A DNA stretch of 64,000 nucleotides, taken from assembly GCF_023161965.1 (NCBI RefSeq), contig NZ_JALNTY010000003.1, positions 229,271 through 293,270 on the forward strand, read 5' to 3'. A program made the position numbers and the translations under genes. The notes beneath the pieces are model-generated. The model made no database searches, was not told the DNA's origin, and saw only the letters and a program-made list of their open reading frames with translations. Positions 11,089-20,490 of the stretch are shown one piece after another. Positions within the stretch are counted from its first letter, which is position 1. Every line of letters begins with the position of its first letter. This DNA comes from Anaerosoma tenue (GTDB taxonomy: Bacteria > Actinomycetota > Coriobacteriia > Anaerosomatales > Anaerosomataceae).

Positions 11089-12213
11089 TCAGGCGCGGAG
11101 GGACCGTCGCTCCATCCGAAGCGAGAAAGCGCATGCCATCTCGTAGTTGATCGTGCCGGCACGCTGAGCCAACTCGTCCATCGCGATGTGCTCGGACCCC
11201 TGACGACCGACGACCACCGCCTCGTCCCCCGCCCTCACATCCATGCCACCGGGTATCTCCACCATCATCTGGTCCATGCACACCCGCCCCACCTGCCGGC
11301 AACGGACGCCACGTATCAGGACGTCCATCTGGTTGGAGAGCACGCGGTGGATGCCGTCGGCATACCCGACCGGAAGCGTCGCGATGGTGGTCGGTCCGCT
11401 CGCATGCCAGGTCAGCCCGTAGCTCACACCGTCACCCAGTCCTATCCGCTTCACGTAGGAGACTCTCGTCTTCACGCTCATCGCGGGCCTGAGGTCGACA
11501 CGGCCCACGGTGGCCGCGGACGCGTCGAGTCCGTAGATAGCGATGCCGCACCGCACCATGTCGTGATGGGAGTCGGCATGCAGGATGGTGGCCGCGCTGT
11601 TGGCGGCATGTACGATCGAAGGCCTGACACCGGTGGCCCGGATGTCCTCGAGCGCGTCGCGGAAGCGGTCCACCTGACGCGCGAAATCCCAGTCCCCGGG
11701 CACATCAGCAGTAGCGAAATGCGTGAAGACGCCCTCGAGCCTGATTCCCGGGAGGCCCTTCAACCAGGCCGCGAACTCCCCCACGTCCTCGGGCTTCACG
11801 CCGATGCGGTTCATCCCGGTGTCGACCTTCAGGTGGCAGATGGCCGGTGTGCCGATTGATGCAGCCTGCCGCGAGAGCGCGAGCGCCATCTCGCGGGTGG
11901 TGAGCGTGACCGTCACACCATCGCGCACGAGCATTCCGGCCGCCTCGACGGGCGGCTCGGCGAGGACCTGGAGCGGCACGCTGATGCCCGATGCGCGCAA
12001 CTCGAGAGCCTCATCGACTGTAGCGACACCGAGATGGTCAGCACCCGCGCGGAGCGCCGCGCGTGAGACCGTGAGTGCACCGTGCCCGTACCCGTCCGCC
12101 TTGACCACAGCCATGAAGCGAGTGTGGGGGGGCGTGAGGGCCTTGAGCGCCCTCACGTTGTGCGCGATGGCGTTCTCGTCGACCTCCACCCATGCGGGAC
12201 GCTCGTAGGGCAT
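11089..12213 (-). CDS. alr: Alanine racemase
   Basis: PLP-dependent racemase giving D-alanine for peptidoglycan. In 374 residues the PLP lysine is K38 in FMAVVKADGYGHG, and the catalytic tyrosine lies in GDGVSYGLTW near residue 265. Both catalytic residues and the family length are intact. It starts 4 bases after the CBS-domain gene. The 225 bases between its end and the V-ATPase operon hold no clear promoter or gene. Confidence 0.97.
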   Translation of the reverse strand: MPYERPAWVEVDENAIAHNVRALKALTPPHTRFMAVVKADGYGHGALTVSRAALRAGADHLGVATVDEALELRASGISVPLQVLAEPPVEAAGMLVRDGVTVTLTTREMALALSRQAASIGTPAICHLKVDTGMNRIGVKPEDVGEFAAWLKGLPGIRLEGVFTHFATADVPGDWDFARQVDRFRDALEDIRATGVRPSIVHAANSAATILHADSHHDMVRCGIAIYGLDASAATVGRVDLRPAMSVKTRVSYVKRIGLGDGVSYGLTWHASGPTTIATLPVGYADGIHRVLSNQMDVLIRGVRCRQVGRVCMDQMMVEIPGGMDVRAGDEAVVVGRQGSEHIAMDELAQRAGTINYEMACAFSLRMERRSLRA

Positions 12214-12216
12214 CCG

Positions 12217-12678
12217 CTAGCCCTCGACGATGAGCGAACGCACGATGTCCGACTTGCTGATGATGCCTACAAGCCGGTCACCGTCGAGGACCGGGACGCG
12301 GCTGACGTCGCGATCCACCATCAGGGTGGCGACATCGCTCACCAGGGCATCGGCCTGGACCGTCACCGGGTCAGCGCTCATCACGTCCTCCACCGTGGCT
12401 CCGACCGCCTTCTTGAGCTCCGACTCGAAGCGCGCCGTCGCGGGCGGGTACATGATGAAACCGTCGAGCAGGTGCAGGTACGTAGGGAACTCGACCTTGA
12501 CGTCACGCATGATCAGATCACCCTCTGTGACGAGGCCGATCAACGCGTCTCCATCGAGAACGGGCAGCGCCCCGACCCGGCTCTCCACCATCATGCGAGC
12601 CGCATCGGTCACGGAGAGATCACGCTCGACCGTGATGGGGTCCTTCGTCATGATGTCGCGTGCGGTAAGAGCAGCCAT
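12217..12678 (-). CDS. Tandem CBS-domain protein
   Basis: A stand-alone Bateman module of 153 residues with two CBS domains (about 5-60 and 95-150). Each has the pattern of an initial VxDVM or ARDIM strand, DALV or DLSV helix start, and the VLDGDxLIGLVT / VLDGDRLVGIIS strand pair followed by SD or GD. Such proteins usually bind adenosine nucleotides and regulate a partner. A 25-residue linker (KVEFPTYLHLLDGFIMYP) separates the domains. It lies between the NAD(P)HX repair gene and alr, which does not reveal the partner. Confidence 0.9.
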   Translation of the reverse strand: MAALTARDIMTKDPITVERDLSVTDAARMMVESRVGALPVLDGDALIGLVTEGDLIMRDVKVEFPTYLHLLDGFIMYPPATARFESELKKAVGATVEDVMSADPVTVQADALVSDVATLMVDRDVSRVPVLDGDRLVGIISKSDIVRSLIVEG

Positions 12679-12728
12679 GGTACCTCCGGTCGTCGACGTC
12701 TGGGAGAGCCTGCGCCCTCAGGATGATT

Positions 12729-14228
12729 CTACCCGCCGGACAGCTCACGGACAGCCAGGTGTATGTAGCCGGGAAGGTCGACTGCGGTAAGACACGTGTC
12801 CGTGAGATCCTCCGCACCACGCTCACCGGCCCGCCCGTGGAGATACGCGCCGAGCACGGCGGCATCGAACGTATCGACCCCCTGCGCCAATGCGGTGCCG
12901 ATCATGCCCGCGAGCACGTCGCCCGTGCCGGCCCTGGCCAGCCCCGGCCCGCCGGAACCCACGATCGCCGAACGTCCGCCTCCGACGACCAGCGTGCCGG
13001 GCCCCTTCAGCAGACAGACCAACCTGTCTCCCGAGAGAGCGGAGGCGGCCTTCAGCCGATCATGGCTCACAGCTGACACGTCACTCCCGAGAAGCCGTCC
13101 CGCCTCCCCCGGATGCGGCGTGATCACGGTCGGCGCGTTCCTGCGACGCAAGGCGTCGACTTCCCCCGTCAGGACGTTCAGAGCGTCGGCATCCAGGAGC
13201 AAGGGCGTGGCAGCCTCGGCTATCAGCGCGCGCACCGCCGCCGCAGGCCCCGTGCCCGTCGTCAGCCCCGGTCCTACGACCACGGCGTCGGCGCCGGAGA
13301 CGGCCTCGAGCACCTCGACCGCGCTCGCGATCGCGCCGTCGTCGTCGGCAGCGACCAGTCGGACGATCGCGTTCGGCCACGCCTGACGTACCACCCCGGC
13401 AGCGGGTGCAGGGGTGACGACATGCACGTAGCCGGCCCCCATCCTGAGCGCTCCCGCCGCGGCGAGCGCCGCGGCTCCGGGGTATGCGGCCGAGCCGGCC
13501 ACGACCGCGACGGTGCCCCGCGAACCCTTGTGGTCCTCGGGCGCCGGCCAGCGCATCAGGCCGCGCAGATCGCACCTGCCGGGGACCTCGAGAGCGCCGA
13601 CTCCATCTACGGGAACACCGATGTCCACCACCACGACCCGCCCGGACAGAGACCGGCCCGGCTCCATGAGCAGCCCCGGCTTCAGTGCCGAGAAGGTCAC
13701 GGTCATCGCGGCCCTTACGACAGGACCCGCAGCCATACCGGTGTCGGCGTCAAGTCCCGACGGTATGTCGGCCGAGACCACCGGAACGCCGCATGTGGCG
13801 ATGGCGCCGATGAGGGAGCGGTACGGCTCGCGCACGGCGCCGTGGAGGCCGATTCCGAAGATCGCGTCGATCACGACCGATGAGCCCTCGACAGCTCGCT
13901 CGAGCGTGCGCGCATCGGAGACATGCTGCCATGCGACGCTTCCCGATGCCGCCGCTGCCGCCTCACGGGCCTCGCCGGCGAGCCCATCAGGCTCCCGGAG
14001 CGCGAGCACCTGCACGGCGCGACCCGCCTCGGCGAGCGCACGGGCCGCGACCCACCCGTCACCACCGTTGTTGCCTGCGCCGCACACGATGGTCACGCTG
14101 CCCGATGGATGGGCGCGCTGGACCTCGGCGGCGAGAGCGGCGCCCGCACGTTCCATCAGACCGCTGAGCGTCGTGTCCGCCGCAGCCTCCGCTGCGCGCA
14201 TCCGCTCCGATGTGAGCGCGTACCGCAT
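12729..14228 (-). CDS. nnr: Bifunctional NAD(P)HX epimerase / ADP-dependent dehydratase
   Basis: Repairs damaged hydrated NAD(P)H. The N-terminal half (about 1-210) is the YjeF_N epimerase with CGAGNNGGDGWVAARAL and DAIFGIGLHG; the C-terminal half is the kinase-fold dehydratase with GSRGTVAVVAGS, VVGPGLTTG, LLLDADALN, TPHPGEAGRLLG and GLARAGTGDVLAGMIG. The 499-residue length matches fused bacterial Nnr. The open frame extends 216 bases upstream, but the ATG at 14228 follows GGGAGGGG and opens the family sequence (MRYALTSERMRAAE). It lies 67 bases after acpS, the order seen in many bacteria. Confidence 0.96.
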   Translation of the reverse strand: MRYALTSERMRAAEAAADTTLSGLMERAGAALAAEVQRAHPSGSVTIVCGAGNNGGDGWVAARALAEAGRAVQVLALREPDGLAGEAREAAAAASGSVAWQHVSDARTLERAVEGSSVVIDAIFGIGLHGAVREPYRSLIGAIATCGVPVVSADIPSGLDADTGMAAGPVVRAAMTVTFSALKPGLLMEPGRSLSGRVVVVDIGVPVDGVGALEVPGRCDLRGLMRWPAPEDHKGSRGTVAVVAGSAAYPGAAALAAAGALRMGAGYVHVVTPAPAAGVVRQAWPNAIVRLVAADDDGAIASAVEVLEAVSGADAVVVGPGLTTGTGPAAAVRALIAEAATPLLLDADALNVLTGEVDALRRRNAPTVITPHPGEAGRLLGSDVSAVSHDRLKAASALSGDRLVCLLKGPGTLVVGGGRSAIVGSGGPGLARAGTGDVLAGMIGTALAQGVDTFDAAVLGAYLHGRAGERGAEDLTDTCLTAVDLPGYIHLAVRELSGG

Positions 14229-14295
14229 GTGCCCCCCTCCCTGCCAGAAGGCGCATGGCCTCACGGGAGATCCGATGGACCTGCTCGCCGTGCCC

Positions 14296-14796
14296 TCAGG
14301 GCTGTTCGTTCCCCACCTCATCGAGGAAAGACCGCGCGTCCTTGAACGACGCCGCGAGCCGCTCCTGCGGGGTCTCCAACTCCGCCTCGACCTTCGGCCG
14401 CATGTCCTCGGTGATCGCCACGGCCGACGCCACCGCGTTCTCATGGGTGAACGACAGCGAGAGGTGCACCTCCACGACTCCCGCGGCCTCCGCCACCTCG
14501 GCGGCGCGCCCGCTCAGATGCGGAGACGGTCGTCCCCGCTCATCGCGCACGACCTCGACGTCCCGGAAGCGCATGCCCGAGAAACCCGTACCCAGCGCCT
14601 TGAGAACCGCCTCTTTCGCGGCGAACCGCATGGCGTAGTGGATCTCCGGCTTGTTGCGACCCTCGCAGTAGGCACGCTCCTCATCCGAGAAGAGCCGCTC
14701 CTTCATGCGGGGGCGCCTTTCGAGCGCATCGCGCATACGCGCGATCTCGACTATGTCCACGCCGAGCCCTGTGATCGCCCGGTGTTCTGCACTCAT
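14296..14796 (-). CDS. acpS: Holo-[acyl-carrier-protein] synthase with C-terminal extension
   Basis: Transfers 4'-phosphopantetheine from CoA to acyl carrier protein. Magnesium ligands are D14 in GLGVDIVEIARM and E62 in RFAAKEAVLKALG; the family end LSLSFTHENAVASAVAI is at 112-128. The ATG at 14796 was chosen over upstream frame because the family starts there. The protein has 166 residues against about 120-130 normally. The excess is a charged, helical tail (131-166) of unknown role, translated through to the stop 67 bases before nnr. Confidence 0.93.
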   Translation of the reverse strand: MSAEHRAITGLGVDIVEIARMRDALERRPRMKERLFSDEERAYCEGRNKPEIHYAMRFAAKEAVLKALGTGFSGMRFRDVEVVRDERGRPSPHLSGRAAEVAEAAGVVEVHLSLSFTHENAVASAVAITEDMRPKVEAELETPQERLAASFKDARSFLDEVGNEQP

Positions 14797-15004: not shown

Positions 15005-16207
15005 ATGGATCCGCAGCCACGCGCTCACGAGAACGTCGTCCGGCTGATCGAGAAAGGGGTCGACGTCCGCGCCCCCCTGAGCGTCGATGTGGGTGACGAG
15101 GTCGATGTCACCCGGATCTCGGGCGACGGCGTCACCATCTACCCCGGATGCCGCATCTACGGCGAACGCACGGTGATATCGGAGGGCTGCACGCTCGGGG
15201 CCGAGGGGCCGGTCACACTCGACGACTGCAGGCTCGGCCCGCGTGTCGCCCTCAAGGGCGGCTACTTCAAGCGGTCGGTGTTCCTCGAGAAGGCCAACAT
15301 GGGTCTTGGCGCCCAGGTCCGCGAGGGCTGTCTTCTCGAGGAGGAGGCGAACGGCGCGCACTGTGTAGGCCTGAAGCAGACCATCCTCTTCCCGTTCGTC
15401 ACGCTCGGCAGCCTTATCAACTTCTGCGACTGCTTCATGGCCGGCGGCACGAGCAGGAAGGACCACAGCGAGGTCGGGAGCTCATACGTCCACTTCAACT
15501 ACACGCCTGACGGCGACAAGACGACCGCATCTCTCTTCGGCGACGTCCCACGCGGCGTCATGCTCGACCGGCCACCCATCTTCCTCGGGGGACAGGGCGG
15601 CGCAGTAGGACCCGTCAGGGTGGGCTACGGAACGGTGGTCGCGGCCGGGTCCGTCCTCCGGGCGGACGTCGGCGACGACCGCCTCGTGTTCGCATCGCCA
15701 CCCGAGAGCCACGAGCGGCAGCATCAACCCCTTTCGTACCGCAACCTGTCGCGAGTGGTGGCGAACAACCTGGCGTACCTGGCCAACCTCGTTGCGCTCG
15801 AGCACTGGTACCGCGAAGTGCGTGCGCCGTTCTTCGAGCGGCAGGCCCTGGGCGACCTCGTGTATGAAGGCGCGCTCGACATGCTCGCGCTCGCGAAGAC
15901 CGAGCGCACCAAGCGTCTGTCGGCCATGGCGGCCAAGGTACCCCGCTCCACCGAGGCTGCCGAGCAGTTCGCGGCTGGAGTGGACCGCATCGCGACGGAC
16001 TTTATGGAAGCGCGCGGTATCGCCGACGCATCGGCATTCCTGCGGCACATCGAGGGATCCTGGAAGGCGGGTAACTACCTGGAAACGATGCAGGGCCTCA
16101 GCCCGGAAGCGAAAGCGGCAGGAGTACAGTGGCTCGAGGAGATCGTCGCACGCCTCACACAAGAGGCTGCTGACATCCTGCCGGCGATGGATCTTCCGTC
16201 CGCATGA
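15005..16207 (+). CDS. Left-handed beta-helix protein of the glm cluster (GlmU-C-terminus-like)
   Basis: A 400-residue protein starting at an ATG behind AAGGAGG. Residues about 25-240 are hexapeptide-type repeats (GDGVTIYPGCRIYG, GPVTLDDCRLGPRVALKGG, GAQVREGCLL, VGYGTVVAAGSV) as in acyltransferase and GlmU beta-helices. The part GGTSRKDHSEVGSSYVHFNYT resembles the lysine/tyrosine acetyltransferase pocket of GlmU only loosely. Residues 245-400 are helical. No nucleotidyltransferase domain is present. Position immediately before glmM suggests a role in UDP-GlcNAc synthesis, for example acetylation or uridylylation support, but the biochemical function is unknown to me. It is first of four co-directional amino-sugar genes. 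Confidence 0.75.
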   Translation: MDPQPRAHENVVRLIEKGVDVRAPLSVDVGDEVDVTRISGDGVTIYPGCRIYGERTVISEGCTLGAEGPVTLDDCRLGPRVALKGGYFKRSVFLEKANMGLGAQVREGCLLEEEANGAHCVGLKQTILFPFVTLGSLINFCDCFMAGGTSRKDHSEVGSSYVHFNYTPDGDKTTASLFGDVPRGVMLDRPPIFLGGQGGAVGPVRVGYGTVVAAGSVLRADVGDDRLVFASPPESHERQHQPLSYRNLSRVVANNLAYLANLVALEHWYREVRAPFFERQALGDLVYEGALDMLALAKTERTKRLSAMAAKVPRSTEAAEQFAAGVDRIATDFMEARGIADASAFLRHIEGSWKAGNYLETMQGLSPEAKAAGVQWLEEIVARLTQEAADILPAMDLPSA

Positions 16208-16236: not shown

Positions 16237-17586
16237 ATGGGTAAGCTGTTCGGGACCGACGGCATCCGCGGGGAAGCCAACAAGTACCCCCTCGACGCCA
16301 TGACCGCCTTCTCGCTCGGCCAGGCGGTCACGAAGGTGTTGAGCGAGGAGCACCACACCACGCGGGTGGTCATCGGCAAGGACACCCGCCTGTCCGGCTA
16401 CATGCTGGAGAGCGCGCTCGAGGCCGGCGTGACATCGATGGGAGGCGTCCCCTACCTCGTGGGCGTTCTGCCCACCCCCGGCATCGCCTTCATCACCGAG
16501 AGCATGCGCGCCGATGCGGGCATCGTCATCTCCGCGTCGCACAACCCGTACCAGGACAACGGGCTGAAGGTCTTCTCGGGTCGCGGCTTCAAGCTGTCCG
16601 ACGCCCAGGAAGACGCCATCGAAGAGCTCATGCTCGGGGGCGACCTTCCCTCCATGGTGCCGGCGCCGCACGACATGGGGCGCGCATACCGCCTCGATGA
16701 CGCGACCGGCCGCTACATCGTCTTCCTGAAGAACACCTTCCCGCGCGAGCTGTCTATGGAGGGCATGAAGATCGTGCTCGATACGGCGAACGGGGCCGCG
16801 TATCGCGTGGCGCCGGACGCGTTCACCGAGCTCGGCGCGGACGTGACCGTGATCCACGATGAGCCCAACGGCCTGAACATCAACGATCGATGCGGCTCGC
16901 AGCACACAGAGGACCTTCGTGAAGCCGTGGTGGAGGCTGGTGCGGCGGTGGGACTCGCGTTCGACGGCGACGCCGACAGGCTGATCGCGGTCGACGAGCT
17001 CGGAAACGAGATCACCGGTGACCAGATCCTCATGATCTGCGCCAAGGCGCTCAAGGACGAAGGCCGCCTCAAGAACGATCTCGTCGTCTCAACCATCATG
17101 AGCAACCTCGGGCTTCGGATCGCCTGCAAGCGCTACGGCTTCAAACACCACGCGGCGAAAGTCGGCGACCGGTATGTGCTCGAGGACATGCAGCGACTCG
17201 GCGCCATCATCGGAGGCGAAGAGTCCGGGCACATGATCTTCCTCGAACACCACACCACAGGAGACGGCATCCTCACCGCCATGCAGCTGCTCGCCGCGAT
17301 GGTCAAGACCGGACGACCTCTGTCCGAGCTCGCCAAGCTGATGGACGTGTTCCCGCAGAAGCTCATCAACGTCGACGTTAAGAGCAAGCCTCCGATCGAG
17401 ACCGTTCCCGCGATCGTGGAGGCAATCAAGACCGCCGAGGCCGAACTCGGCGAAGAGGGCCGCGTCCTGGTGAGGTACTCGGGAACCCAGAACATGTGCC
17501 GTGTCATGGTAGAAGGACCCACGGACGACGTGACCGAGAGGCTGGCCGCTCAGGTGGCCGACGTCGTCAGAGATTCCATCGGATAG
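16237..17586 (+). CDS. glmM: Phosphoglucosamine mutase
   Basis: Interconverts glucosamine 6-phosphate and 1-phosphate on the way to UDP-GlcNAc. The 449-residue protein carries the phosphoserine loop ISASHNPYQDNG (S101), the magnesium loop AFDGDADR, the sugar-binding GGEESGH and the phosphate-binding RYSGTQNMCRVM. A GTG lies just before the ATG at 16237; the ATG is preferred because GAGGAG is 7 bases upstream. It begins 29 bases after the beta-helix gene and ends 9 before the nagB-like gene. Confidence 0.97.
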   Translation: MGKLFGTDGIRGEANKYPLDAMTAFSLGQAVTKVLSEEHHTTRVVIGKDTRLSGYMLESALEAGVTSMGGVPYLVGVLPTPGIAFITESMRADAGIVISASHNPYQDNGLKVFSGRGFKLSDAQEDAIEELMLGGDLPSMVPAPHDMGRAYRLDDATGRYIVFLKNTFPRELSMEGMKIVLDTANGAAYRVAPDAFTELGADVTVIHDEPNGLNINDRCGSQHTEDLREAVVEAGAAVGLAFDGDADRLIAVDELGNEITGDQILMICAKALKDEGRLKNDLVVSTIMSNLGLRIACKRYGFKHHAAKVGDRYVLEDMQRLGAIIGGEESGHMIFLEHHTTGDGILTAMQLLAAMVKTGRPLSELAKLMDVFPQKLINVDVKSKPPIETVPAIVEAIKTAEAELGEEGRVLVRYSGTQNMCRVMVEGPTDDVTERLAAQVADVVRDSIG

Positions 17587-17595
17587 GGAGCCGCC

Positions 17596-18552
17596 ATGCC
17601 CTTCAAGATCTTCGTCACGCGCGATTTCGACCACATGAGCAGGGTGGCGGCCGATGTCGTCATAGCCGATATCAAGGAGAAGCAGGCTGCCAAGGACGAG
17701 TATGTGCTCGGCCTGGCCACCGGCAACTCGCCCACCGGACTGTACAAGGAGCTCGCGCGCGCGTTCAACGAGGGGACGATAGATGCCCCCAGGGTCAGGA
17801 GCTTCAATCTCGACGAGTACGTCGGACTCCCCGGCGAGAACGCCCAGCAGCGGGCGCTCCATCCCGAGTCGTACAGCTACTTCATGATCCGGGAGCTCTT
17901 CGGTCTGCTCGACCCCACATTCACCGAGACGAACGTCCCATGGGGCACGCTCATCGACCAGGATGAGCTGGTGACCGCGCTCGAAGCCAAGCCGTCGCAG
18001 TACGAGCTCCAGGGCACCGACAAGGGCAAGGCGATCGTCATCAAGCCCGACGCCGACGGCTTCCTCGGGTGGATCCGACGGGAAGTGCTCGATGCGTATG
18101 AGGCGAAGATCGAGCGCTTCGGCGGGATCGACCTTCACGTGGTAGGCGTTGGAGGCCGGGGGCACGTGGCGTTCCACGAGAGCGGCATCCCCTTCGACGG
18201 CAACAGCATGCTGCTGGTCCGACTGGATGACAACACTGTTGAGAACGCGGTGACGGACGGTCACTTCGCGTCCGTCGATGAGAGTCCACGCTACGCGATA
18301 TCCATGGGAGCCGAACTCGTGTACAAGGCCAGAACGGTCGTTCTTGTCGCGAACGGGAGCCGCAAGACCGCCCCGGTGGCCGAATCGATCCTCGGCGATG
18401 TCACCTGCGATGTCCCGATCAGCCGGAGTCAGAGCTGCGTTGCCGACGGCGGCACGCTCGTGTACGTTCTCGACGAGACGGCAGCCATGGAGCTGCTCGA
18501 CCGCCGCGACGAGGTCGAGTCCAGGGGGTACGAGATCATCGACCTCCGCTGA
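17596..18552 (+). CDS. nagB: Glucosamine-6-phosphate deaminase/isomerase-like protein (NagB family, atypical)
   Basis: NagB-family protein of 318 residues; the family is usually 240-270. Shared features are LGLATGNSPTGLYKEL (38-53), FNLDEYVGLP with D73 (E. coli D72), HPESYSYFM, and GVGGRGHVAFHES. In the last loop H190 and E195 match E. coli H143 and E148, but the position of D141 (Asp or Asn in known deaminases) is R188. About 60 extra residues (near 115-175) precede it. The gene lies between glmM and glmS, so it may catalyse the reverse step, act on another amino sugar phosphate, or regulate. The family call is secure; the exact reaction is not. Confidence 0.8.
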   Translation: MPFKIFVTRDFDHMSRVAADVVIADIKEKQAAKDEYVLGLATGNSPTGLYKELARAFNEGTIDAPRVRSFNLDEYVGLPGENAQQRALHPESYSYFMIRELFGLLDPTFTETNVPWGTLIDQDELVTALEAKPSQYELQGTDKGKAIVIKPDADGFLGWIRREVLDAYEAKIERFGGIDLHVVGVGGRGHVAFHESGIPFDGNSMLLVRLDDNTVENAVTDGHFASVDESPRYAISMGAELVYKARTVVLVANGSRKTAPVAESILGDVTCDVPISRSQSCVADGGTLVYVLDETAAMELLDRRDEVESRGYEIIDLR

Positions 18553-18633: not shown

Positions 18634-20490
18634 ATGTGCGGAATCATCGGCTACGTAGGACCGAAGCCAGCATCACCGGTACTGCTCGAAGGTTTGAGGC
18701 GGCTGGAGTACCGGGGGTATGACAGCGCGGGTGTCGCCGTCCTTCAGGACGACGCCATCACGGTACGCAAGAAGAAGGGCAAGATCGACGAGGGCATCGC
18801 GCGCACCCTCGCCGACCAGCCCGCGCCCGGCACCATGGGTATCGCCCACACCAGATGGGCGACCCACGGTGAGCCCTCGGATGAGAACTCACATCCCCAT
18901 CTCGACGCATCGGGCCGTATCGCCGTGGTGCATAACGGCGTCATCGAGAACTACGAGCACCTGAAGGAGCGACTCCTCGATGCGGGCCACGAGTTCCAGT
19001 CGGGAACCGACACAGAGGTTCTCGCGCACCTGATCGGCGTGCACTACGAGCGTCTCCGTGACGGCGACGCCACGCCGGACCTGCTCAACGAAGCGGTCTC
19101 GGCCGCGCTGCGCGAAGTGATCGGCACGTACGGCATCGCGGTGATATCGAGCGAGATACCCGGTGTGATCGTGGGAGCCCGTCGTGGCTCCCCGCTGATA
19201 ATCGGTATCGGCGAAGACGAGAACTTCCTCACGAGCGACTCCAACGCCGTGGTGGCCCACACCAAGCAGGTGGTGTTCCTCAACGACTACGACGTGGCCA
19301 CCGTCACGGCTGGATCGTTCGAGGTGCACAACCTCGGAACCGACACCGCCGACGTTCAGATCAGCAAACTCGAGTTCGATGCCGAGGACTCACAGCGTGG
19401 CGACTTCGAGCACTTCATGCTCAAGGAGATCCACGAGCAGCCCCGCACCGTGGAAAACGCGATCAGGGGCCGGATCGACAGCGAGGGCGCCACAGCCCGG
19501 TTCGGCGGCCTGAACATGACGCCCGCCGAGCTGCGCTCGGTGCAGCGGATCATCATCGCCGCGAGCGGCACCAGTTGGCACGCCGCACTCATCGGCGAGT
19601 ACATCATCGAGGCCCTGGCGCACATCCCCGTGGAGGTGGAGTTCGCGCACGAGTTCTGCTATCGCATGGCGCCTGTACGGCGTGACACGCTCGTGCTCGT
19701 CATCTCGCAGTCGGGCGAGACCGCCGACACGCTGATGGCGTTGCGCGAGGCGAAACGCCGTGGACACAGGGCGCTCGCGATCGTGAACGTCGTGGGCAGC
19801 ACGATCGCACGTGAGGCCGACGGCGGAATCTACATGCATGCGGGACCTGAGATCGGTGTCGCCTCCACCAAGGCCTTCATCGCCACGCTCGTGTGTCTCG
19901 AGCTTCTCGCCATCCACCTCGGGCGCATGCGCATGCTCTCCGCCGGCCAGGCCACGAAGACGTTCAAGGGGCTCGAGGCGCTGCCTGCACAGATCGAGCA
20001 GGTGCTCGCCCAGAGCGACGCGATCAGGGAGATCGCGCTCAAGTATGCCGAGGCGGACGATTTCTTCTTCCTCGGCCGGGGCTACAGCTACCCCACCGCT
20101 CTTGAAGGCGCTCTCAAGCTGAAGGAGATCTCGTACATCCACGCCGAAGGCTACTCGGCTGCTGAGATGAAGCACGGTCCGATCGCCCTGATCGATGAGA
20201 AGACCCCCACGGTCTTCCTGGTCCCGCAGGACTTCATGTACGACAAGACGATGGCCAACCTCGAGATGATCCGGGCGCGCAAGGGCCCGGTGATCGCCGT
20301 TGCGAGCGAGGGCGACGAACAGATCGCCAGGATCGCCGACGATGTGATCTTCATCCCGAAGGTGCGCGACGAACTGAACCCGCTGATCGCCAGCGTCCCG
20401 CTGCAGCTCTTCGCGTACCACCTTGCGGTGGCACGCGGGTGTGACGTCGACAAGCCCCGGAACCTCGCCAAGAGCGTCACGGTGCTCTAG
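18634..20490 (+). CDS. glmS: Glutamine-fructose-6-phosphate aminotransferase
   Basis: Makes glucosamine 6-phosphate from fructose 6-phosphate and glutamine. The 618 residues begin with the nucleophile Cys2 (MCGIIGYVG) of the glutaminase domain, which includes RRLEYRGYDSAG and HTRWATHGEPS. Two SIS sugar-isomerase domains follow (from about 290), with SGTSWHAA, SQSGETADTL and the C-terminal KPRNLAKSVTVL. It starts 81 bases after the nagB-like gene behind GGAAAAGG. It ends the plus-strand amino-sugar block at a strong terminator. Confidence 0.98.
   Translation: MCGIIGYVGPKPASPVLLEGLRRLEYRGYDSAGVAVLQDDAITVRKKKGKIDEGIARTLADQPAPGTMGIAHTRWATHGEPSDENSHPHLDASGRIAVVHNGVIENYEHLKERLLDAGHEFQSGTDTEVLAHLIGVHYERLRDGDATPDLLNEAVSAALREVIGTYGIAVISSEIPGVIVGARRGSPLIIGIGEDENFLTSDSNAVVAHTKQVVFLNDYDVATVTAGSFEVHNLGTDTADVQISKLEFDAEDSQRGDFEHFMLKEIHEQPRTVENAIRGRIDSEGATARFGGLNMTPAELRSVQRIIIAASGTSWHAALIGEYIIEALAHIPVEVEFAHEFCYRMAPVRRDTLVLVISQSGETADTLMALREAKRRGHRALAIVNVVGSTIAREADGGIYMHAGPEIGVASTKAFIATLVCLELLAIHLGRMRMLSAGQATKTFKGLEALPAQIEQVLAQSDAIREIALKYAEADDFFFLGRGYSYPTALEGALKLKEISYIHAEGYSAAEMKHGPIALIDEKTPTVFLVPQDFMYDKTMANLEMIRARKGPVIAVASEGDEQIARIADDVIFIPKVRDELNPLIASVPLQLFAYHLAVARGCDVDKPRNLAKSVTVL

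Follow-up and report, generated by a model that had tools for sequence, protein, structure and literature searches.

P0001, a stand-alone relative of the GlmU acetyltransferase half, as a candidate for the acetylation step missing from halved GlmU proteins

The 64,000-nucleotide stretch of DNA analysed here (the window) encodes a 400-residue protein, P0001, that is most likely a previously unrecognised separate protein for the acetylation step of GlmU, judging from profile comparisons, predicted structure and genomic distribution. Peptidoglycan and lipopolysaccharide both require UDP-GlcNAc, for which GlmU is regarded as the bacterial enzyme. In both phyla that were surveyed, GlmU is found halved far more often alongside P0001 than in its absence. 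The features of the region are as follows.

11089..14796, - strand: flank with alr, nnrDE and acpS, also found in relatives without the block
15005..16207, + strand: P0001, GlmU-C-like stand-alone protein, 400 residues
15005..15385, + strand: predicted linker helix and GlmU-like left-handed beta-helix, residues 1-127 (AlphaFold2, structure comparison)
15320..15601, + strand: almost invariant core, residues 106-199, likely the active site (conservation, profile alignment)
15746..16177, + strand: predicted helical C-terminal domain, residues 248-391 (AlphaFold2)
16237..17586, + strand: glmM', phosphoglucosamine mutase whose loops read RYSGTQ and GGEESGH (TIGR01455, loop reading)
17596..18552, + strand: nagB-like gene, glucosamine-6-phosphate deaminase-like (TIGR00502)
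18634..20490, + strand: glmS' (TIGR01135)

An earlier, sequence-only reading of this DNA had placed a 400-residue gene ahead of glmM, a nagB-like gene and glmS, and this arrangement holds. All 400 codons are open in the + frame at 15005-16207, with AAGGAGG located 5 bases 5' of the ATG. The frame could be extended upstream to 14705; the alignment of relatives starts at the ATG of 15005. Of the neighbours, GlmM' (594.8 bits with TIGR01455) and GlmS' (784.3 bits with TIGR01135) score over the respective cut-offs, while the NagB-like protein reaches 147.1 bits with TIGR00502, under the cut-off of 236.9. A single copy of P0001 was found in the window genome (search at E 1). Relatives are 47-98% identical to it, and an artefact of frame or assembly is ruled out by the lack of internal stops in all 80 named loci, some of which are truncated by contig ends; these loci are the best 80 of 174 stretches that encode a P0001 relative. 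Two P0001-like genes occur together in one locus (L055:676-1902 and L055:6001-7239) and pairs are also present in genomes G114 and G437, where the two proteins possibly have different roles.

No Pfam family reached its cut-off with P0001. The top NCBIfam model is that of GlmU, TIGR01173 (4.9e-14, 52 bits against a curated cut-off of 366.85), and the match opens only at profile position 242 of 452, confining it to the acetyltransferase half. P0001 is thus not a bifunctional GlmU, as its score lies under the cut-off and the N-terminal uridylyltransferase domain, whose absence had been claimed from the sequence, is missing. TIGR01173 matched all 49 members of the P0001 family alignment at E 0.01 and GlmU models were the best matches. 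When the family was compared with full-length GlmU of relatives by hhalign, residues 11-235 aligned with template positions 245-444 (probability 98.5%, E 2.8e-15), a match colinear with the GlmU acetyltransferase half over the beta-helix. Weaker matches were obtained with the LpxD, NeuD and DapD models, and the archaeal GlmU model TIGR03992 matched 3 of the 49 members at E 0.01 (best 5.8e-4). No match to a GNAT family was found at E 0.01 in Pfam or NCBIfam, and the confident part of the P0001 model is a left-handed beta-helix with no GNAT fold, which sets it apart from the GNA1 type.

The AlphaFold2 model of P0001 (mean pLDDT 73.0) bears out the expected beta-helix followed by a helical C-terminus. 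Confidence in the left-handed beta-helix extends to approximately residue 125, and it is also good for the six helices predicted at residues 248-391. Across the two constructs modelled, residues 129-216 and most of 118-246 are of low confidence, the shorter construct being the worse. Residues 3-127 superpose on residues 246-366 of GlmU (PDB 2qkx) with a Z score of 18.0 and an rmsd of 1.6 over 118 residues, placing the beta-helix in the GlmU register; the rows of the VIA-align structure comparison span mainly residues 2-142. In a Foldseek search the model matched no viral structure at E 0.001, and no NCBIfam model matched residues 247-400 at E 0.01. On the basis of these profile and model comparisons, P0001 is remotely related to the acetyltransferase half of GlmU, from which it differs in standing alone and in having a predicted helical C-terminal domain.

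The core ranks among the most conserved parts of P0001. It contains R106, K124, S136, H154, H163, N165, K172 and the motif FLGGQG, and its invariant polar residues include both histidines. R106, K124, N165 and K172, which are invariant across 69 P0001 sequences, align with R333, K351, N386 and K392 of E. coli GlmU, the residues that hold the sugar phosphate there. The catalytic histidine of E. coli GlmU is H363, along with Y366 and N377, and in P0001 these places are occupied by S136, N139 and E156, a placement made by hand by counting 12 residues from K124 as in GlmU, since hhalign puts a gap there. An invariant serine therefore stands in place of the catalytic histidine throughout the P0001 family, while the histidine is present in 28 of 29 complete GlmU of the window's order and in five of five further complete GlmU examined from P0001 carriers. 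The GlmU pocket is accordingly retained at the four substrate-binding residues and changed at the positions of H363, Y366 and N377. The base for acetyl transfer could be supplied by H154 or H163 instead of the GlmU histidine.

The sequence-only reading had made its proposal of an alternative GlcN-1-P acetyltransferase depend on the state of glmU elsewhere in the genome. A genome-wide profile search ruled out a complete copy: all GlmU candidates were scored in the window genome (2.1 Mb, 99.06% complete), as in the window's order and the named-locus genomes, and no complete GlmU was found. The best match (345 bits, profile positions 3-328 of 452) corresponds to a 342-residue frame ahead of prs, and this sole glmU retains the uridylyltransferase motifs and ends before the acetyltransferase site. 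Of the ten other GlmU matches, P0001 itself ranks first over the acetyltransferase half with 52 bits, followed by one of 40.3 bits.

Six of 61 genomes in the window's order carry P0001 (E 1e-10). Four of them (G000, G001, G012, G020) have a halved GlmU, G010 has a complete one, and none was found in G003, a genome that is 70% complete. Among the 55 non-carriers, GlmU is complete in 50, and no case of halving within a contig was seen; in the remaining five it is cut by a contig end (G002, G036), present only as a fragment (G028) or not found (G017, G050). Fisher's test for the association of P0001 with halved GlmU gives p 1.5e-5, uncorrected for kinship. In genus g4, both occur only in G020 and neither is found in G006, G016, G023 or G025. 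The complete GlmU of G010 (L107) has intact active-site letters and this genome, which has both the P0001 block and a complete GlmU, may be an intermediate. G017, a member of the window's family listed as 100% complete, has no GlmU match above 61.2 bits, no P0001 and a native GlmM, reflecting either an assembly gap or another route.

Among the best 80 of 174 loci, ten are of Actinomycetota type and the others delta-proteobacterial, two being named only as Pseudomonadota and one only as a bacterium. Sixty genomes with such loci were tested, and identical coordinates show three of them to be the assemblies of G001, G010 and G012. Halving or decay of GlmU is seen in 43 of the 60, while six have a complete GlmU and 11 have none at 1e-30; one of the six complete proteins (L130) has altered active-site letters. 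The decay varies from clean loss, leaving about 250 residues, to proteins of about 320-410 residues in which the beta-helix survives as a remnant or has internal deletions, so that halving looks like several events. In two carriers (G100:C197 and G358:C58) the GlmU match extends beyond in-frame stops into the beta-helix, giving the impression of an acetyltransferase half in decay.

The trend extends to the class of genome G118, Desulfosarcina alkanivorans, in the phylum Desulfobacterota. The P0001 family is present in 136 of its 147 genomes. In 117 of the 147 the GlmU match is strong and ends by profile position 303, in 11 it is weak and in 19 there is none at 1e-25; no GlmU scored over the cut-off among the first 10 candidates per genome, and a GlmU ranking low in that first look may be missed, as it may among the first seven scored in the phylum. 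The phylum sample of 198 includes 34 carriers, of which 24 have a halved GlmU, four a complete one (G082, G319, G333, G382) and six none at 1e-40; complete GlmU thus occurs in 6 of the 60 named carriers and in 4 of these 34, G082 being common to both sets. The 164 non-carriers comprise 92 with complete GlmU, 25 with halved GlmU, 13 with a partial-size match of unlisted range, eight with C-terminal or edge pieces, among them G276 and G313 of the C-terminal kind, and 26 with none. Where a GlmU is listed, it is halved in 24 of 28 carriers against at most 38 of 130 non-carriers (Fisher's test with the 13 partial-size proteins counted as halved, p 3.7e-8, uncorrected for kinship). A kinship-corrected test on a uridylyltransferase tree (136 rows) has little power: its six independent pairs on average change the same way in 3.5, the opposite way in 0.1 and show no difference in 2.4, and the result is not significant. 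As to the direction of transfer between phyla, the Actinomycetota make up a single clade (SH-aLRT 99) inside the rest of the P0001 tree when GlmU serves as outgroup, with the long outgroup branches making the root unsure. The homology, taken with the halved-GlmU association in two phyla, supports the proposal of P0001 as an alternative acetyltransferase for GlcN-1-P.

P0001 as the answer for every halved GlmU is ruled out by the 25 to 38 of 164 non-carriers that have one, and such lineages need other answers. The loci L187-L202, L205 and L206, with other Desulfobacterota, are among these genomes, as are G448, G277 and G272. No P0001 relative was found at E 0.001 in the 38 phylum non-carriers with halved or partial GlmU or in G017, in a search that had no positive control of its own and used the query that matched 136 of 147 genomes in the class and 34 of 198 in the phylum.

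Whether the gene travels with glmM in other genomes can be answered from the same loci: glmM lies directly after P0001 in 59 of the best 80 of 174, with a nagB-like gene next in 36 of the 59; three loci are cut by contig ends and 18 do not have glmM directly after P0001. Relatives of the window genome without P0001 (G005, G006, G016) have the gene order glmM, glmS, acpS, nnrDE, alr, and their glmM and glmS are 45-46% and 49% identical, respectively, to those of the window. In G001, G010, G012, G020 and the window, the acpS-nnrDE-alr flank adjoins P0001, glmM', nagB' and glmS' on the opposite strand, and in the window a CBS-domain gene sits between alr and nnrDE. Each of the six carriers of the order has just one GlmM match, which belongs to the new kind (82-100% identity); those of the 49 other genomes with one are 44-50% identical. 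Judging from the shared flank and the single new-kind GlmM, glmM-glmS seems in the window's family to have given way to the four-gene block P0001-glmM'-nagB'-glmS'.

The replacement GlmM differs in two loops. RYSGTQ is found in 63 of 65 GlmM from P0001-bearing named loci (two unreadable), in place of the R[APST]SGTE of 20 of 23 native GlmM examined (three unreadable, including L181). The second loop is GGE[ED][SA]GH in 61 of the 65, GGEQSGH in two, GGESSGH in one and unreadable in one, compared with GGEQSGH in 21 of 23 native proteins (two unreadable). Based on these motifs, the changes are a predicted switch of the sugar-binding pocket; the native loops were read outside the Desulfobacterota, so the link of the loops to P0001 holds within the window's order only. 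Deaminases have an aspartate in the motif GxGxDGH. The NagB-like protein of the window (17596-18552) has GVGGRGH, and R, K or H is retained at the aspartate position in readable linked loci; a deaminase-type example, GIGGDGH, is present in L073. From its motif, the NagB-like protein may not be a deaminase.

The best explanation, to which we assign a probability of about 0.8, is that P0001 supplies the N-acetyl transfer lost from GlmU, as a diverged stand-alone descendant or cousin of its acetyltransferase half. GlmS and then GlmM' would make glucosamine phosphate, which P0001 would N-acetylate with acetyl-CoA as the putative donor, the acceptor in the simplest scheme being GlcN-1-P, and the short GlmU would join the resulting GlcNAc-1-P to UTP. 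GlmU is a trimer with active sites between subunits, and by likeness P0001 may be one too, with H154 or H163 as its presumed base. Alternatively, P0001 may acetylate GlcN-6-P, with GlmM' acting as a GlcNAc-6-P mutase, as in eukaryotes; it would still stand in for GlmU-C, one step earlier in the pathway. A change of mutase substrate would require GlmM to be replaced together with P0001, and the carriers of the order do have the new GlmM only, with RYSGTQ for R[APST]SGTE and mostly GGE[ED][SA]GH for GGEQSGH. This reordering is nevertheless unlikely: GlmM' scores far over the GlmM cut-off, the loop of eukaryotic mutases is different, the residues that P0001 retains are those that in GlmU hold GlcN-1-P, and linkage alone could account for the co-replacement. 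Similarly doubtful is the broader proposal of a mobile and re-engineered UDP-GlcNAc module made up of P0001, GlmM' and NagB', where acetylation before the mutase would give a eukaryote-like order from bacterial parts. The route would then run GlcN-6-P to GlcNAc-6-P to GlcNAc-1-P, the acetyltransferase having a new catalytic apparatus and the mutase a switched pocket, and the arrival of the module would displace glmM-glmS and make the GlmU acetyltransferase half dispensable.

It is more improbable still that P0001 is not an enzyme, serving as a structural or regulatory partner, for example by completing the short GlmU, while another enzyme acetylates. The serine at the catalytic histidine position and the additional helical domain would fit such a role, and some genomes with halved GlmU cope without P0001; the highly conserved core, with invariant polar residues including two histidines, argues against it, and in many carriers GlmU has no beta-helix left to complete. 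Least probable is a role outside UDP-GlcNAc supply, with P0001 acylating another sugar phosphate or a nucleotide sugar and the GlmU C-terminus lost by coincidence. The weaker LpxD, NeuD and DapD matches, the 18 of 80 loci (best 80 of 174) without an adjoining glmM and the few carriers with full GlmU are consistent with this, but GlmU models match every member and score best, glmM is linked in 59 of those 80 loci, and the association with halved GlmU recurs in two phyla.

If P0001 does supply the acetyl transfer, the family would close the UDP-GlcNAc gap in some actinobacterial lineages and in one class of sulfate reducers, and the short GlmU of both groups should then no longer be read as bifunctional. 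It would also show the replacement of an essential step when a glm operon was exchanged, and inhibitors of the GlmU acetyltransferase would miss organisms with P0001.

Halved GlmU proteins have been reported before. Rickettsia GlmU is described as having no acetyltransferase domain, explained by host-supplied GlcNAc-1-P (PMC5615194). UDP-GlcNAc synthesis was scored absent in approximately 10% of genomes, endosymbionts excluded, and the GlmU of Chlorobaculum limnaeum, which has no C-terminus, was discussed as pathway loss (PMC7725333). As far as the available portions of these papers extend, the window genome, Rickettsia and C. limnaeum are alike in having a halved GlmU, and neither text names a replacement enzyme for the latter two (PMC5615194, PMC7725333). 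A literature search over titles and abstract openings, with most subscription journals outside it, likewise returned no paper naming an enzyme that stands in for the GlmU acetyltransferase in these groups.

Among known systems, P0001 most resembles the acetyltransferase half of GlmU (approximately positions 240-445 of TIGR01173; PDB 2qkx, 3st8), with which it shares a colinear profile, linker helix, beta-helix and the four substrate-binding residues. Unlike GlmU, it is without the uridylyltransferase half, has serine for the catalytic histidine and carries two insertions in the core and an additional C-terminal part, a helical domain of about 150 residues. The archaeal GlmU (TIGR03992) is also a beta-helix acetyltransferase but bears a nucleotidyltransferase domain. 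P0001 is, like the GlmU-C of the split GlmU in G276 and G313, a separate gene of acetyltransferase type. Those stand-alone genes adjoin glmS (L203:7341-8159 and L204:7693-8412) and, unlike P0001, encode true GlmU-C, as checked in one case (L203, 299 bits with TIGR01173 compared with 52 for P0001).
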